Shown here: one piece after another, positions 11,988-23,065 of the stretch
How the letters are laid out: each line of letters starts with the position of its first letter
Numbering within the stretch: the first letter of the stretch is position 1
Source: an uncultured Flavobacteriaceae bacterium
GTDB lineage: Bacteria; Bacteroidota; Bacteroidia; Flavobacteriales; Flavobacteriaceae
DNA length: 64,000 bases
NCBI GenBank assembly: GCA_947494715.1
Contig: CANLWG010000004.1
Coordinates: forward strand, 62,001-126,000
Direction: 5' to 3'
Translations under genes and position numbers: made by a program
The notes under the pieces: generated by a model
Database searches by the model: none
The model's input: the letters and a program-made list of their open reading frames with translations, nothing else
Told to the model about the DNA's origin: nothing

Positions 11988-12363
11988 GTTTAAGAGTTTA
12001 CAAATCGCGGAGAGTGACCATAAAAAGGCAGAAGACCCAAACAAATTGACGGTTTTTGAGGTAGGTGAGACAAGAACCATTGATTTTACTTTGCTCGATG
12101 GTACACGGCAAAACTTTGCTTATATCCATTACTTGACGGCTTGGCTTGGTAAAGACGGTGACGATAGGGTTATAAAGATATTCTTTGCCACACATCTTGT
12201 TACTATCAAAGGATATTGCTTGGATGATTTATATGATGAGTTGATAAAACTATCGGTAAAATATATCAAAGCCCATGATGAACGCTACGCCGATATGATT
12301 GAAGAAGACAAAGCGTTTGTGACGGACATTAAAATCACTTGGAAAAAGGAAGGGGAAGATTAG
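11971..12363 (+). CDS. Hypothetical 130-residue protein downstream of the relaxase
   Basis: Its start lies 17 bases inside the relaxase gene, so it is almost certainly in the same transcript. The protein is soluble, with a mixed alpha/beta pattern (LTVFEVGETRTIDFTLLDG, NFAYIHYLTAWLGKDGDDRVIKIFFATHLVTIKG, then helices ending in charged residues). I do not recognise a family. The pattern of a compact beta sandwich with one aromatic helix could suit a small DNA- or protein-binding accessory factor, but this is only an impression. It converges with the cyclodipeptide-synthase-like gene, and the two stops overlap by 4 bases. Confidence 0.65.
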   Translation: MSQNYKFKSLQIAESDHKKAEDPNKLTVFEVGETRTIDFTLLDGTRQNFAYIHYLTAWLGKDGDDRVIKIFFATHLVTIKGYCLDDLYDELIKLSVKYIKAHDERYADMIEEDKAFVTDIKITWKKEGED

Positions 12364-13004
12364 CGTTCAGTCAATTTAACGTAGTGCTGGCGGTGCAATC
12401 CGATTGGTGCGTTAATTTCACCTGAAAGTATAAGTTTTGAAGATTGATTTTGTTTGCCTGGATAAAGTTTGATGTGTTCAAATCGTCTTCCCATGCAGGT
12501 GTTTACAGCAATTTTCTCTAAGATACAATCTGTAGCTTTCTTGTAGGCTTCTTTACGGGTAGCAAATACTTTACCCTTGCTTATTTGTCTTTCAACATAA
12601 TCTTTAACATCTTCGGAAACAGCCTTTTTAAAATCATGGTTGATTTGGTAGAGCTGGCGCAATTGGGCGTTTATATATTTAGTTTCATCGCCCTCTAGCC
12701 ATTGATTCCAGCGCATGAATTTTACGGGAACACCGACCTTATCAAAGATTTTTTTGTTTCGTTTAATCCAGCGATTACCCTTAATTTTAGCTATAAGCGG
12801 GCTTGCATTATCATTTACTCCCATATAGGCAAAATTATGACGACAGGCTGTATCGCAAACGTTGATATAACATTCTTCAAATGTTCCATCATCTAGGCGT
12901 TTTTTCATCCAATGGGCGATAGCTTCTATCTTTTTTCCTTCAAAATATGAAGCACCTACGCTTACTGCTAAAACGCAAACTTTTACCGTGCCTTTTTCAG
13001 GCAT
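12360..13004 (-). CDS. Probable tRNA-dependent cyclodipeptide synthase, XYP type
   Basis: Cyclodipeptide synthases use two aminoacyl-tRNAs to make a diketopiperazine. This 214-residue protein has the family pattern: LAVSVGASYF at 12-21 puts a Ser (15) where AlbC has its catalytic Ser37, and Ala18 where AlbC has Asn40. Glu163 and LYP (180-182) fall where AlbC has Glu182 and Tyr202-His203; the spacings 15 to 163 and 15 to 181 match AlbC's 37 to 182 and 37 to 202 within three residues. A non-Asn residue, Tyr and Pro at these places define the XYP subfamily, known from Legionella- and Rickettsiella-type bacteria. The Tyr178 position reads as Asp159, so that alignment is uncertain. The start at 13004 follows AGAGGT; an earlier ATG at 13031 would overlap the upstream regulator gene. 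The product cannot be predicted. Confidence 0.72.
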   Translation of the reverse strand: MPEKGTVKVCVLAVSVGASYFEGKKIEAIAHWMKKRLDDGTFEECYINVCDTACRHNFAYMGVNDNASPLIAKIKGNRWIKRNKKIFDKVGVPVKFMRWNQWLEGDETKYINAQLRQLYQINHDFKKAVSEDVKDYVERQISKGKVFATRKEAYKKATDCILEKIAVNTCMGRRFEHIKLYPGKQNQSSKLILSGEINAPIGLHRQHYVKLTER

Positions 13005-13023
13005 ATTTCGACCTCTGACCCTT

Positions 13024-13659
13024 TTATACATATGTGGTCTCCGTTGGTTTATTGCCATTTGACCACATATATTCAAACTGGCTTCTATTAATTTGCGAAA
13101 GCCCAATATCATCATAAAGGCTGACATCCTTATTGTTTTCAGTCAGAATGGCAAAATAGTTCCCAAAGACAACATAAGGTAAAGGATAGAAAAATTCTTC
13201 GGGGATATAGCGATATTCACTAACGGGGTATCTTAGATGAGTATCATTTTGCTTAACAAGAAAACGGAATCTTACATTAAGATTATCTCTCATTCGTATT
13301 TGACTTTGGATAATTTCTTCACTGGACGCTTTGTTATTCGCAAAACCAAATAGCACCTCTTTAATATCCTCCTCTTTAAGAATGTGATATGCAATATCCA
13401 TGAGTTTAGAAAAAGCATCAGGACTTTTTATTATTGTCAAAGTGTTTTGTTTTTTAACTGCCCCATCTTCCTTAAATTCAACCCCGTTTCGGTCAAAAGC
13501 ATTTATAATTTCATTCATAGTCGTTTTATGAGGGTTATCTGTACCACCATTTTCAATAGCCAATAGGGTTTGACGATGCACACCTGATTGCTTGGCAAGG
13601 TCATCTCTTGACCAATCGAGTAATGCACGGGCGGCTTTTATTTGATTCGGCTTAATCAT
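13024..13659 (-). CDS. XRE-family regulator with an additional C-terminal domain
   Basis: A 211-residue protein. Residues 5-60 form an HTH_3 DNA-binding domain (IKAARALLDWSRDDLAKQSG, VHRQTLLAIENGG). The remainder, about 140 residues, has no family I can name; it contains FGFANNKASSEE, NVRFRFLVKQND and a run of aromatic residues (EEFFYPLPYVVFGNYF) that could make a ligand-binding or dimer domain. The ATG at 13659 was chosen over an upstream TTG because the -10 box lies only 6 bases before the ATG. The cyclodipeptide-synthase-like gene follows 19 bases downstream, so this is probably its cotranscribed regulator. Confidence 0.8.
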   Translation of the reverse strand: MIKPNQIKAARALLDWSRDDLAKQSGVHRQTLLAIENGGTDNPHKTTMNEIINAFDRNGVEFKEDGAVKKQNTLTIIKSPDAFSKLMDIAYHILKEEDIKEVLFGFANNKASSEEIIQSQIRMRDNLNVRFRFLVKQNDTHLRYPVSEYRYIPEEFFYPLPYVVFGNYFAILTENNKDVSLYDDIGLSQINRSQFEYMWSNGNKPTETTYV

Positions 13660-13665
13660 GGTTTT

Positions 13666-13693
13666 TTTATACCACAACTTGGCAAAAAGTCAA
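13666..13693 (-). promoter_or_regulatory. Sigma70-like promoter of the regulator gene, leaderless
   Basis: On the minus strand TTGACT (13693-13688), a 16-base spacer and TATAAA (13671-13666). The gene's ATG begins 6 bases after the -10 box, so the predicted transcript starts at or next to the ATG and has no room for a ribosome site. Confidence 0.65.
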
Positions 13694-13783: not shown

Positions 13784-13853
13784 CGAAATTGTGAGGTAAC
13801 CCGAATTGAAGTTTTCGGGTTTGTGTAAAGACTACTTTTGTGAGGAAAGAACT

Positions 13854-14009
13854 ATGACACCCCAACAAACATTGGCTCTCAAAGCCAACGAAAATGACGA
13901 TTTTAATCTGTTCTATGCAATCGAGCGTATTAAGGATAATGACCCTTTTAAGGCTCTTGAAACATTGGAACGATTTCAGCGTCGGGCTTGTCGTCAAAAA
14001 TCCGCATAA
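13854..14009 (+). CDS. Small 51-residue protein of unknown function
   Basis: The ATG at 13854 follows GAGGAAAG, a good Shine-Dalgarno site; the open frame begins at 13806 but that part has no start signal. The peptide is helical and charged (TLALKANENDDFNLFYAIER, then FKALETLERFQRRACRQ), with one cysteine near the end. It is the first gene after the TTGACA promoter. It lacks a hydrophobic or Gly-Gly leader, so I do not read it as a bacteriocin precursor, though a regulatory or antitoxin-like role is possible. Confidence 0.55.
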   Translation: MTPQQTLALKANENDDFNLFYAIERIKDNDPFKALETLERFQRRACRQKSA

Positions 14010-14189: not shown

Positions 14190-14396
14190 ATGACAGACGA
14201 CAGCGATTTTGAGAATAACCATACACCTTTTGAGACACCTTTAGAGGCTGCGCTTAAAGCTCTTAAAAAGATGAAAGATGACCCAAATAGTGGCGACCAA
14301 GTGGAACGGATATCGAGAGCCGTAAATATTCTTACGCTAGGTATTCGGGAAATCAAACACGCAACTCAAAATTTACGAAATAAAGAAATTCGCTAA
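14190..14396 (+). CDS. Small 68-residue acidic protein of unknown function
   Basis: The start ATG follows AGAGAGAAG at normal distance. The protein has an acidic N-terminus (MTDDSDFENNHTPFETP) and a helical remainder (LEAALKALKKMKDD, then VERISRAVNILTLGIREIKH). No signal peptide or cysteine is present. I do not recognise the family. It lies on the same strand as the RiPP-like genes and could be part of their transcript, or an unrelated element gene. Confidence 0.5.
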   Translation: MTDDSDFENNHTPFETPLEAALKALKKMKDDPNSGDQVERISRAVNILTLGIREIKHATQNLRNKEIR

Positions 14397-14505
14397 ACGG
14401 TGTCGAGTGAATAATTGTGAGGAAAGACACCATAATCCTTAAGATGAATAGAGTTTTAATCGTTTGTTGACCAAAGATGATGCAAAATTCAACCATAAAT
14501 ATGAG

Positions 14506-14512
14506 AGGAGGT
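14506..14512 (+). promoter_or_regulatory. Near-perfect ribosome binding site of the short peptide gene
   Basis: AGGAGGT (followed by GA) is complementary to the 16S rRNA tail over nine bases. It is the strongest such site in the window. Spacing is 3 bases to the first ATG (14516) and 6 bases to the second (14519), so the second is favoured. Confidence 0.75.
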
Positions 14513-14518
14513 GAAATG

Positions 14519-14572
14519 ATGAAAAATCATGATTTATTTAATAATAAAACGGACTTACTCTGCACTTCATAA
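14519..14572 (+). CDS. Candidate 17-residue RiPP precursor peptide
   Basis: The open frame encodes MKNHDLFNNKTDLLCTS and ends in TAA; an in-frame ATG one codon earlier could add a Met. It was found by eye because it has an exceptional ribosome site. Its C-terminus, Cys15-Thr16-Ser17, plus Thr11, are exactly the residues that azoline-forming YcaO enzymes cyclize. A strong hairpin follows, then the E1-like and YcaO genes 72 bases on. In precursor operons a terminator placed after the precursor raises its level relative to the enzymes. If real, it would be among the shortest gene-encoded substrates for a YcaO enzyme; alternatively it could be a leader peptide controlling the operon. No experimental or homology evidence is available to me. 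Confidence 0.55.
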   Translation: MKNHDLFNNKTDLLCTS

Positions 14573-14594
14573 AGTCTATTGATTTTAATTTAAA

Positions 14595-14626
14595 AGCAAA
14601 AAGGTCAGTCAATTGACCTTTTTGCT
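14595..14626 (+). terminator. Strong hairpin between peptide gene and E1-like gene
   Basis: AGCAAAAAGGTCA (14595-14607), a 6-base loop and TGACCTTTTTGCT (14614-14626) pair without mismatch over 13 bases. The U-run lies inside the stem's 3' arm, so it may act as a partial terminator or processing site between precursor and enzyme genes. Confidence 0.7.
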
Positions 14627-14643
14627 ATCTCGGAGGAAATATT

Positions 14644-14982
14644 GTGAAACTTATTTCAATGAATGAATTTATCTTAAATAAAATACCTGTTGAACAACCG
14701 TATTTTGTTTTAGGGATGCTGGAAGAGGACATAGTTTGTATTCCTGTTAACAAAAATACATGTGTGCCATGTATTCAAAAAAGGACAAAATCCAGTGTGT
14801 GGGTAGATTCACATGCTTATAAAAAAGTTGATGAATTATCTACTGAAAAAGTAGTGCAAAATCATTTTTTATTGGAAAAATATTTCGGGTGTTTCGTTGA
14901 TATAACTATTACCGATGAAGCATTCTGCATTAAGAACGCATATGCTCCACTATGTTTGGAAAACTGTAATGACAGACAATAA
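14644..14982 (+). CDS. Minimal E1-like cyclodehydratase partner with tetra-cysteine site
   Basis: A 112-residue protein starting with GTG at 14644 after GGAGGAAA. The segment IVCIPVNKNTCVPCIQKR resembles the strand-turn and CxxC motif of E1/ThiF-like partners of azoline YcaO enzymes (the pattern G-P-L-V-x-P-G-x-x-x-C-L-x-C). A second pair, CLENC near residues 104-108, would complete a zinc site: Cys40, Cys43, Cys104, Cys108. Full E1-like partners are about 300 residues or more and carry an N-terminal precursor-recognition domain; here only the C-terminal zinc-bearing part is present. Its end overlaps the YcaO start by 14 bases. The assignment rests on the cysteine pattern and on gene position. 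Confidence 0.6.
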   Translation: MKLISMNEFILNKIPVEQPYFVLGMLEEDIVCIPVNKNTCVPCIQKRTKSSVWVDSHAYKKVDELSTEKVVQNHFLLEKYFGCFVDITITDEAFCIKNAYAPLCLENCNDRQ

Positions 14983-16264
14983 GATTTATTCATCATATCA
15001 AGGTTTCATAGAGCAATATCCTAAAGAGATGGATATTGAAGGTTTATCCCTGATTTTTAATAGTAAAGCTGGGATTATTAATGGTGTGATGGAACGGTTT
15101 GAACTTGAAGAATATGGTTTGAGCATGTTTCAGTGTGTATCAGCTAAAACCTCTGTCCTTTTCGACCTCAAACGAGAGGTATCAAGCGGTGGGCTTGGCG
15201 TTAATTTTGTTGATGGCAATGCTTTTAAAGCTTGTATTGGTGAGGCAATAGAGCGTTATTGCATGAGCTATACAAAAGAAAGTAATATATACCTTAAATC
15301 ATGTTCAGTTCTTCCGAGTGAAGCTATTTCATACACCAACGACCAATATGATAAATCAAATGGTGAATTTACAAACCCATTTAAAGAAGAAATATATTGC
15401 ACAAAGATTAAAGGAGTTGATGGAAATGATAGGTCTATCTGGTATCCATCCTGTTTAATTTATTTACCCTTTGAAAATCAAAAACCTATTTGCGAAACAA
15501 CATCAACAGGGGTTGCCGCGCATATCAATTATAACGAAGCTATTTTTTCAGGTCTTTTGGAAGTAATCGAACGAGATGCTGTTATGATTAACTTCTTCCA
15601 AAAATTACCCAAAATATCAATATCCATAAATTCAATACTTTCTAATGCAGGAAATCAACTTTGTGATTTTCTCAAAAAAATTGAAAAACACTATAGCGTT
15701 CTTGTGTTTAAGCAGTACAGCGATATTAATATTCCTATTTTTCTGTGTTATATATGGGATAAAAACGCAAACAAAGATACCCTTCATTTTGGTATAGGGG
15801 CTTGTGCATCCTTGGATTCAGACGAAGGTATTACAAAGGCTCTCAAAGAGTGCTTGTTTACCTATTTTTATTCTAAAAATATGATGCATTTGAAAAAGGA
15901 TAAAAAAGAAGAAATCAATGCATTATACGAGCATTTTTTATACTATCAGAAATCAGAAAAGTTCTTTGAACTAACCAAAGTTGATGATGATAAAGCCTAT
16001 TCAAAGGAAAGCTTTAAAGAAGAACATCTTTTCCAAAGTATCAGGGAAAATAACCTGAACTGTTTTTATGAAGACCTAACGACAAAAGATATTTCAGATA
16101 ATACATCCTATGTGGTCGTCAAATCTATAATCCCTGAAATGATTGACTTGAATAAGAGCTATAAAATGAGAAGATTAGGATTGAAGCGTCTTTTAGAAGT
16201 GCCTAAGAAACTTGGCTTGCCTGTTCAGAAAACTCTTAATACTGAACCACACCCATTTCCATAG
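14969..16264 (+). CDS. YcaO-family cyclodehydratase, azoline-forming type
   Basis: YcaO enzymes use ATP to activate peptide amides; azoline-forming members cyclize Cys, Ser or Thr side chains. This 431-residue protein shows the two nucleotide/metal signatures: SSGGLGVNF at 72-80 with ACIGEAIERY at 88-97, and TSTGVAAHINYNEA followed by EVIERDAVM near 178-206. It ends in PHPFP (427-431), the C-terminal PxPxP motif that distinguishes azoline-forming YcaO proteins from thioamidating or ribosomal ones. The start at 14969 (MTDNK) was chosen over the 14915 frame start because the earlier part lies in the coding sequence of the partner gene. The overlap with that gene and the 7-base gap to the kinase gene make one operon. 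Confidence 0.88.
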   Translation: MTDNKIYSSYQGFIEQYPKEMDIEGLSLIFNSKAGIINGVMERFELEEYGLSMFQCVSAKTSVLFDLKREVSSGGLGVNFVDGNAFKACIGEAIERYCMSYTKESNIYLKSCSVLPSEAISYTNDQYDKSNGEFTNPFKEEIYCTKIKGVDGNDRSIWYPSCLIYLPFENQKPICETTSTGVAAHINYNEAIFSGLLEVIERDAVMINFFQKLPKISISINSILSNAGNQLCDFLKKIEKHYSVLVFKQYSDINIPIFLCYIWDKNANKDTLHFGIGACASLDSDEGITKALKECLFTYFYSKNMMHLKKDKKEEINALYEHFLYYQKSEKFFELTKVDDDKAYSKESFKEEHLFQSIRENNLNCFYEDLTTKDISDNTSYVVVKSIIPEMIDLNKSYKMRRLGLKRLLEVPKKLGLPVQKTLNTEPHPFP

Positions 16265-16271
16265 GTTTGAA

Positions 16272-17081
16272 ATGATAGAATTTTTACAAAATAAAATGGA
16301 CGCTCTGGGCTATCATGCTGATTTATGCCAAATAGACAATGGCAATATTCATTATGTGTATTCGATAAAGGGTAAGGACTTAATCTTGAAGGTTAGGTCA
16401 AACCATGCCAGTAAATATCCTGATGTTGGAATAAATGCCCAAGACATACAAAAAGAAATAGACATTCTAAAAATAACAAATGATATTTCGATTGATAATA
16501 TTAAAATTCCTCAATTGGTAGAATATGAGGTCAATGACGAAAATCTACCTTCTTGGATGATTATTGAATCCCTAGGAAACCCCTATGATTTCTATAACTG
16601 TGATATTAATCGGGGATTAAGCAATGATGATTTTTTCAGATTAGGAAAGAACTTTTCCAATCTTCATAGCGCCATTCAAAGGTCAGAACTGTTCGATATG
16701 CTTAATGATGCCAATGGGAAAGATTATTTTGAAAGATATTTTGAACACAAAGTTGGAAAAGTTACAGAACATCAAGATTTATTTTCAGAATTGAAGTTGA
16801 ATACTTCTTATTTGGTTCATGGCGATTTAATCCCTAAGAATTTAATTTTCAGGGAAAACAATTTATCGGTTATTGATTGGGAGTACACCCATTTTGGAAG
16901 TCTTGAATTGGAGCTTGCACTGTTTTTATCAGAGATGGAGAAAGGCACTAAGAAAAAAATCCCCAAAGATGCTCAAAAGGCTTTGATTACGGGTTATTCA
17001 TCAACTGACGGACAGAATATAAAAATAAATGAACGCCTACTTTATAAAGTGAATGATGCTTTTAGTTTAAAAGTGAGGTAG
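16272..17081 (+). CDS. APH/choline-kinase-like phosphotransferase
   Basis: A 269-residue member of the aminoglycoside phosphotransferase fold. The catalytic loop is YLVHGDLIPKNLIF (HGDxxxxN, near residue 180), followed by the metal-binding LSVIDWEYTHFGSLELELA. The N-lobe contains LILKVRSNH, with the ATP-binding Lys. Such enzymes phosphorylate small molecules, and in biosynthetic or resistance loci they often modify or inactivate the product. The start at 16272 follows the YcaO stop by 7 bases, so it is in that operon. The substrate may be the modified peptide, the cyclodipeptide or a competitor's antibiotic; nothing in the sequence decides this. Confidence 0.85.
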   Translation: MIEFLQNKMDALGYHADLCQIDNGNIHYVYSIKGKDLILKVRSNHASKYPDVGINAQDIQKEIDILKITNDISIDNIKIPQLVEYEVNDENLPSWMIIESLGNPYDFYNCDINRGLSNDDFFRLGKNFSNLHSAIQRSELFDMLNDANGKDYFERYFEHKVGKVTEHQDLFSELKLNTSYLVHGDLIPKNLIFRENNLSVIDWEYTHFGSLELELALFLSEMEKGTKKKIPKDAQKALITGYSSTDGQNIKINERLLYKVNDAFSLKVR

Positions 17082-17670
17082 CATGGTTTGTTTGGGTAAA
17101 AACACCTGCCTCATCATCGAAATAGATATTGTAAGCTGTACAATGCTGAACGGGATTAAGGTTGACCCCAAGCTGATATTGAAAAAAATTCCAGATAACA
17201 CCCGAATGGGTGGCTATTACGGCACATTCAAAAGTATTTTTTGTTGCAATTAAATGAAAAATCTCTGAAATTCTTTGAAAAAATTCCCCTTTGCTTTCCC
17301 CATTTGGAAGTCTTAAATCGGTAGAAACACTTATATCTTTTTTCATCCAGTTTTCAAAAATATCTGCATATTTTTCAAATGCATCACTTTTATGCATTCC
17401 ACTAGCATCGCCATAATCAATCTCTGTGAGGTCATCAATAATATTGATATGGTGATTATGGTATTCATTAACGATTTCGGCTGTTTTTTTAGCCCTTGAT
17501 AATGGGCTAGAAAAGAACAGGTCTATTTTTTCACCTTCTAGCCTTTTGGCTAAGTCTTCGGCTTGGGCAATGCCTGTTTTATTAAGGGAAATATCATGTT
17601 TTGAACCTAGGCATATTTTATTCAGATTCCAATCTGTTTCACCATGCCTGAAAATGATTAGTTTTTTCAT
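17062..17670 (-). CDS. Histidine phosphatase (phosphoglycerate-mutase-like)
   Basis: A 202-residue enzyme of the histidine phosphatase superfamily. The RHG motif with the phospho-accepting His is IIFRHGETDWN at about residues 5-15; SSPLSRAKKTAEIV and the second catalytic His in VIATHSGVI near 153 complete the site. Members remove phosphate from sugars, nucleotides, lipids or small metabolites. The gene converges on the kinase gene and their ends overlap by 20 bases, so it has its own promoter. Its neighbour adds phosphate and it may remove phosphate, which would suit a self-protection cycle, but the pairing is inference. Confidence 0.88.
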   Translation of the reverse strand: MKKLIIFRHGETDWNLNKICLGSKHDISLNKTGIAQAEDLAKRLEGEKIDLFFSSPLSRAKKTAEIVNEYHNHHINIIDDLTEIDYGDASGMHKSDAFEKYADIFENWMKKDISVSTDLRLPNGESKGEFFQRISEIFHLIATKNTFECAVIATHSGVIWNFFQYQLGVNLNPVQHCTAYNIYFDDEAGVFTQTNHATSLLN

Positions 17671-18745: not shown

Positions 18746-18822
18746 GTGCCCTTAGCTCAACCGGATAGAGCAATTGCCTTCTAAGCAATAGGTTGCAGGT
18801 TCGAGTCCTGCTGGGCGCGCCA
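18746..18822 (+). tRNA. tRNA-Arg (anticodon TCT), CCA encoded
   Basis: A 77-base cloverleaf: acceptor GTGCCCT with TGGGCGC, D arm GCTC/GAGC, anticodon loop CTTCTAA giving TCT, and T arm GCAGG/CCTGC around TTCGAGT. The acceptor has one U-G pair and a U-U mismatch at its base. The discriminator is G and CCA is encoded. The host tRNA-Met at 22.8 kb has no encoded CCA, so this tRNA is probably foreign. The P4-type integrase starts 100 bases downstream, the usual tRNA-integrase arrangement of genomic islands. Confidence 0.92.
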
Positions 18823-22785: not shown

Positions 22786-22798
22786 AGTGATTGAAAAG

Positions 22799-22872
22799 TA
22801 GCGAGAGGGGGACTTGAACCCCCGACCTCTGGGTTATGAATCCAACGCTCTAACCACCTGAGCTACCTCGCC
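22799..22872 (-). tRNA. tRNA-Met (anticodon CAT)
   Basis: Read leftward: GGCGAGG acceptor, TA, GCTC D arm, TTCATAA anticodon loop with CAT, T arm GGGGG/CCCCC around TTCAAGT, then TCTCGCT and A. No CCA is encoded, which is usual in Bacteroidetes. The acceptor closes with two G-U pairs, and the last pair of the anticodon stem is A-C. A truncated copy of its 5' half lies just upstream. The 3' end faces the accessory region, as in integration sites. Confidence 0.9.
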
Positions 22873-22883
22873 ATTTTGTTTTT

Positions 22884-22933
22884 CGGACTCCGAGTTATGA
22901 ATCCTGCGCTCTAACCACCTGAGCTACCTCGCC
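22884..22933 (-). pseudogene. Truncated tRNA-Met copy (5' half)
   Basis: The first 40 or so bases of tRNA-Met are repeated almost exactly, from GGCGAGG through the CAT anticodon loop. The sequence then diverges and no T arm or 3' acceptor strand follows before the intact gene begins. It reads as the remnant of a tandem tRNA pair or of an integration/excision event. Confidence 0.85.
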
Positions 22934-23065
22934 ATTTGGATTAAAACGGCTGCAAATATAAAGTTTAATTTCTTGCCTATCAACTCCCATACTTTAAATT
23001 ATTCTATCGGTTTTATTTTTTTATCATTTGGAAATCTATATATTGCCCGAAGAAAAATCATCGTA

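Follow-up and report, generated by a model that had tools for sequence, protein, structure and literature searches.

A candidate 17-codon precursor gene ahead of a reduced YcaO operon on a mobilizable element of an uncultured Flavobacteriaceae bacterium

Does the 17-codon open reading frame (ORF) that stands ahead of a YcaO operon in an uncultured Flavobacteriaceae bacterium encode the peptide on which the enzymes of that operon act? The question was raised by a preliminary description of a window of 64,000 nucleotides (the whole stretch of DNA analysed, G000:C4:62001-126000 of a 5.97-Mb genome), which proposed a very short azoline precursor and, as an alternative, a leader peptide controlling the operon. 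The gene order in the window was short ORF, strong hairpin, E1-like piece, YcaO and kinase (Table 1). We consider it possible, with a rough probability of 0.4, that the substrate of a pared-down azoline peptide operon, sited on a mobilizable element, is encoded by the short ORF.

Table 1 Features of the YcaO operon and of the element that carries it (window coordinates)
Feature	Position	Strand	Basis or remark
TTGTGAGGAAAGA, candidate operator or promoter element	14415-14427	+	Identical to 13838-13850; 13787-13799 is a near-copy
Same frame as the short ORF from its first ATG, 31 codons, MMQNSTINMRGGEMMKNHDLFNNKTDLLCTS	14477-14572	+	
Extended Shine-Dalgarno-like sequence GAGAGGAGGTG	14503-14513	+	11 pairs with host 16S tail
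MKNHDLFNNKTDLLCTS, 17-codon ORF for a putative precursor or leader peptide	14519-14572	+	
Perfect 13-bp hairpin (arms 14595-14607/14614-14626), T run in 3′ arm	14595-14626	+	Repeat search and fold
E1-like partner, C-terminal cysteine part, 112 aa	14644-14982	+	GTG start with GGAGG
YcaO, 431 aa, ends TEPHPFP	14969-16264	+	PF02624, E 3.6e-36
APH-type kinase (PF01636)	16272-17081	+	HGD....N and IDWE motifs in sequence
Histidine phosphatase (PF00300)	17062-17670	-	Convergent with kinase gene
Right end of mobile element, 3′ part of tRNA-Met	22798-22841	-	

The 3′ part of tRNA-Met at 22798-22841 had a 44-bp copy (93%) at G000:C4:61274-61317, ~0.7 kb to the left of the window start, and the two sites bound an integrated element of 23,568 bp (~23.6 kb). 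Genes for a MobF relaxase, an integrase and a coupling-protein-like product were among those it carried. The element is mobilizable and has the YcaO operon as cargo. Three of 27 element proteins matched a Flavobacteriales contig, namely the relaxase, the coupling protein and a 130-aa protein (weak, E 0.003), and the first two also matched a Runella plasmid. Among 20 element proteins scanned, no transporter or peptidase Pfam family was detected, RadC-like JAB aside, and a scan of nine proteins with defence-system models returned no match.

The YcaO protein carried the PHPFP terminus ascribed to it in the preliminary description, and a C-terminal PxPxP of YcaO marks azoline formation. E92/E95/R96 and E198/E201/R202 (ExxER), which we take to be ATP-site residues, were invariant in 20 aligned sequences (the alignment drew on 19 of 27 loci, omitting L024, L029, L032 and L041-L045). 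Among the features of an azoline-forming YcaO of the SagD type, the ExxER domain and the C-terminal PxPxP were thus present, while the score against TIGR03604 (179.5 bits, E 9.2e-53) fell under the curated cut-off of 219.25, for which reason the protein is called SagD-like and is not filed under that family. The nearest fold to its predicted structure (mean pLDDT 74) was LynD (E 1.3e-19, 18% identity).

The partner was E1-like, as had been described, but proved to be a C-terminal piece only. It aligned solely with the last third of E1-like proteins, and its cysteines C40, C43, C104 and C108 matched invariant ones (alignment of the 17 of 20 loci with an E1 match; L024, L029 and L032 were omitted and L002 and L003 not used). 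About 190 N-terminal residues were absent, the leader-binding part included, in agreement with the earlier statement that the partner has no precursor-recognition domain. The predicted structure of the piece was unusable (mean pLDDT 44). A SagD-like YcaO with an E1-derived partner devoid of the recognition part is supported. The third gene encodes an APH-type kinase, with motifs of such kinases; this protein had no PDB relative with E < 0.1, no plasmid match and one weak match in 59 other relatives. The histidine phosphatase gene possibly lies outside the operon. A tblastn search for SagB (E 0.1) returned no match in the window, nor in L004-L007, which together span the 62 kb that precede it on the contig.

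Across the sampled genomes, contigs, plasmids and phages, the search for close relatives of the YcaO came up empty, full-length identity being ≤35% throughout. In genome_contigs and in viral_contigs, scans with the single protein turned up no close relative, and the alignment scan gave none in viral_contigs and 27 loci in genome_contigs with ≤31% identity, save L045 (50% over a 49-residue piece); the contig scan worked by patterns, and relatives varying in both patterns may be missed. Twenty-eight plasmid records held YcaO relatives with up to ~31% identity, phages held none, and a DNA search of plasmids returned none. With the host's own genome excluded, relatives were present in two of 59 sampled relatives (G047, 35%; G035, 30%), in two of 294 sampled genomes of the class and, at E ≤ 1e-20, in one of 394 of the phylum; the G035 match and locus L028 had equal scores and were taken as the same contig. 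YcaO relatives also occurred in Parcubacteria-type (CPR) genomes (L039, L041 and L042), whose stretches also contained a SagB-like ORF.

These distant SagD-like operons, mostly from Bacteroidota, are laid out as precursor (MKIxxL...AAAGCCCxCCC), hairpin, E1-like gene, YcaO and SagB. Clustered Cys-rich precursor ORFs preceded E1 in 17 of 26 loci (22 ORFs with gaps of 27-472 nt; 25 of L020-L046, with L044 and L045 left out, plus L002), or in 16 of 26 under a stricter precursor pattern, and none was found in the two nearest relatives, L002 and L020. A SagB-like ORF was present in 25 of the 27 loci L020-L046. The Cys-rich precursor gene was present four times in one Aureivirga locus, L028 (2583-3541), and three times in another, L032 (2445-3517).

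Hairpins and repeats were counted in the 17 loci with clustered precursors only, a strong hairpin being defined as at least 10 pairs with dG ≤ -9 within the first 70 nt past the stop. Such a hairpin followed the precursor stop in 14/17 loci, compared with 1/17 after YcaO, 2/17 after SagB, 3/17 upstream and 155/510 random stretches (30%), a frequency past precursors only ~2.7-fold above the random one; moreover, the loci are partly near-relatives, some of them G+C-rich, and are not independent. A looser threshold gave 15/17, 1/17, 4/17, 7/17 and 200/510, respectively. Perfect repeats of 11-15 bp, like that of the window, were seen in 7/17 precursor-E1 gaps. The 13-bp hairpin reported in the preliminary description was confirmed as a perfect inverted repeat, and with 13 pairs, a position 22 nt past the stop and -19.4 over 70 nt it resembled those of the 17 loci (median -20.2). 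Of the new evidence, this repetition of the layout of distant loci by ORF and hairpin speaks most strongly for placing the ORF in the position of a precursor.

The window operon shares with the SagD-like operons the gene order, the hairpin after the first small ORF, the PHPFP ending of YcaO and the E1 cysteines. It differs in that the ORF has no Cys-rich core or recognisable leader, E1 is reduced to its last 112 residues, and SagB is absent, with an APH kinase instead. The ORF has a single Cys. It starts MK...L like the distant precursors, in which M1, K2 and L6 were invariant when aligned, and so do five of 406 island ORFs, the short ORF counted. On a leader profile, its N-terminus scored -3.8 (9th of 406; 2% of shuffled versions scored as high), compared with 13.2-23.7 for the precursors, from which the profile itself was built. 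Judged by layout, then, the short ORF sits in the place of a precursor but without likeness to those precursors, and the proposal that it is one has position and hairpin in its favour, and the missing Cys-rich core and a score far outside the leader profile against it.

The ORF lay where it had been described and ended in Cys-Thr-Ser, but its length was less certain than stated. Its frame is open back to an ATG at 14477, with further in-frame ATGs at 14480, 14501 and 14516, and 17 residues is one of five possible lengths with an ATG start; the length therefore depends on trusting the Shine-Dalgarno (SD) sequence, the letters of which become codons for Arg-Gly-Gly-Glu in the 31-aa reading. Among random ORFs of 10-40 aa, 0.49% ended in three C/S/T residues and 0.22% did so with a Cys. 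The short ORF was alone in having such an end among 536 small element ORFs, where ~2.6 were expected by chance.

The ribosome site had been called a nine-base match to the 16S tail and the strongest in the window. Against a generic tail, AGGAGGTGA at 14506-14514 was indeed the longest start-linked match, whereas the tail of the host, GGAACACCTCCTTTCT, gave a Watson-Crick match of 8 bases (AGGAGGTG), or 11 consecutive pairs with one G-U. The SD stack sum was -21.7, compared with -20.7 for host rpsU and -11.2 for the best of 90 nearby genes (stacking energies were hand-coded and G-U terms approximate); the three best SDs among those 90 genes all lay in the element, and mock windows, set for the same genes at non-functional upstream distances, reached -15.3 and -13.1. 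Markov shuffles contained a mean of 0.68 nine-base sites before a start codon per 64 kb, so that a nine-base match is not rare window-wide, and a mean of 0.06 sites of -21.7 or better (6/100 shuffles). Genome-wide, AGGAGGTG followed at 2-8 nt by ATG occurred 25 times, compared with 14 for the reversed control pattern. In the modelled free leader, the SD had an unpaired probability of 0.26, i.e. was mostly paired.

What such a site means depends on the host. According to PMC9976891, ribosomes of Bacteroidia reportedly fail to recognise SD sites, with rpsU as the one usual exception in Flavobacteriales; the same source states that the wild type still expressed a strong-SD reporter and that F. 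johnsoniae ribosomes lacking bS21 prefer mRNAs with a strong SD, rpsU being autoregulated through such ribosomes. The 11 consecutive pairs liken the short ORF to rpsU, which, unlike a short ORF before a biosynthetic operon, is a ribosomal protein gene. The strong SD, though rare, is no ordinary proof of translation in this host, and it may reflect either an SD-using donor or ribosomes without bS21. The argument built on the ribosome site is accordingly weaker than was claimed, while its 11 pairs and rpsU-like strength stand.

A leader peptide is in our view unlikely. Its translation via the strong SD would control hairpin read-through or E1-piece translation and thereby tie the operon to the state of the ribosome, in a flavobacterium perhaps to the absence of bS21. 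Only 17 nt separate the hairpin from the GTG at 14644 and no promoter-like site is listed between the short ORF and that GTG, so the operon mRNA probably runs through ORF and hairpin, as a leader peptide would need. The rpsU-grade SD and the preference of bS21-free F. johnsoniae ribosomes in PMC9976891 point the same way, as does a figure legend on mccA in PMC6495379, in which ribosome binding induces termination. One modelled state also agreed: once a ribosome occupied an early position on the ORF, the E1-piece SD was unpaired with a probability of 0.19 rather than 0.52 (one sequence, in silico). Yet no upstream stretch paired with the hairpin arms better than shuffles did (21-41% were as good), no antiterminator was found, and the hairpin formed in all three modelled states that allowed it. 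Nor was a run of regulatory codons seen in the ORF, and the SD and the ORF's 3′ part paired unremarkably, with 28% and 58% of shuffles equalling them. An RNA constraint on the Cys-Thr-Ser codons was rejected on the same shuffles and on their rank, 18th of 48 synonymous choices for SD pairing.

That the short ORF has no function, having arisen by chance in the 5′ region of an operon that is mobile and may be decaying, likewise seems improbable. Chance supplies SD-like 9-mers before starts, mock sites of up to -15.3 and three-C/S/T ends at the frequencies given above, and the truncated E1 and missing SagB would suit decay; against this, an SD of -21.7 seldom arises by chance and occupies the position of a precursor, all four cysteines remain in the E1 piece, which has its own GTG with GGAGG, and the YcaO and kinase motifs are conserved. 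It is more improbable still that the true substrate is encoded elsewhere, as another element ORF (13854-14009 or 14190-14396), a distant peptide or a cellular protein. The 51-aa ORF 13854-14009 lies just past a copy of the 13-bp repeat and likewise has a strong hairpin downstream (-27.7 over 100 nt), and 14 of the 536 small element ORFs had at least three Cys within ten residues; however, none of these 14 lay in the 12-19 kb part of the window, near the operon, neither of the two named ORFs is Cys-rich, and a genome search for canonical precursors, run without a positive control, detected none (best E 0.2).

The reading of the short ORF as substrate gene is favoured by its position and hairpin, by its C/S/T end, unique among the small element ORFs, and by the fit between loss of the E1 recognition part and loss of a leader; the single Cys, the leader-profile score of -3.8, the 30% of random stretches with such a hairpin, the strong hairpin past ORF 13854-14009, the lack of a Cys-rich precursor in L002 and L020 and the want of transporter or peptidase matches among the 20 proteins scanned count against it. 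Were it correct, the hairpin would act as a leaky terminator, giving much precursor mRNA and little enzyme mRNA, and the E1 piece would dock on YcaO and activate it. YcaO, with no recognition domain, would meet the peptide directly, and azolines would be closed at the C-terminal Cys-Thr-Ser and stay unoxidised for lack of a dehydrogenase, while the kinase would either modify Ser/Thr or protect the producer. We regard as somewhat doubtful the full form of such a leaderless azoline system, in which a 17-residue precursor without leader, translated via an rpsU-grade SD in a group reported not to recognise SDs, would be cyclised at its C-terminal Cys-Thr-Ser by YcaO with a cysteine-rich activator in place of a recognition-competent partner.

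Set beside known systems, the operon shows partial likenesses. MccB of microcin C adenylates the peptide, whereas the window operon encodes a YcaO and lacks that adenylating part. The operon given in PMC6495379 (mccA, terminator, mccB, with a 7-residue precursor before the hairpin) nevertheless resembles ours in having a very short (here candidate) precursor gene with an SD, then a terminator hairpin and a biosynthetic gene. Thioamitide operons combine YcaO with an APH-type kinase (TsaC; PMC8153245), as the window operon does with its PF01636 kinase, but no TfuA or HopA1 family match was found among the window proteins scanned. The definition of linear azol(in)e clusters in PMC7136475 includes an E1- or ThiF-like partner for leader recognition. 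Of such a partner only the C-terminal cysteine part was found here, and no SagB-type dehydrogenase for azoles occurred in the window or in L004-L007; with two defining features thus missing, the operon is not filed as such a cluster. The precursor feature fits in position and hairpin and not in profile, and the possible core is Cys-Thr-Ser only. By analogy, the operon may operate in the manner of linear azol(in)e peptide clusters without being filed among them.

If the ORF is the substrate, the locus would be a natural test of the minimum that YcaO needs, with no recognition domain, leader or dehydrogenase; it would represent a very small azoline-forming toolkit and bear on the gain or loss of YcaO peptide partners. 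A leader role would instead make it a rare example, besides rpsU, of a gene with a strong SD in Flavobacteriales.

Some further features of the element were recorded. The 13-bp repeat upstream of the ORF (0.14 matches expected at ≤1 mismatch) is a possible operator of the element. A cyclodipeptide synthase gene (12360-13127, minus strand) lay in the same element beside an HTH gene (13024-13677, minus strand); it matched PDB 5ocd with E 2.8e-18 and Pfam CDPS only with E 0.0014, and had no relatives in viral contigs and four distant ones (22.5%) on plasmids. A tRNA-Arg (TCT) gene (18746-18822) adjoined the integrase inside the element, and a second partial tRNA-Met copy (92%, 22888-22937) just beyond the right end is perhaps the trace of an earlier integration.
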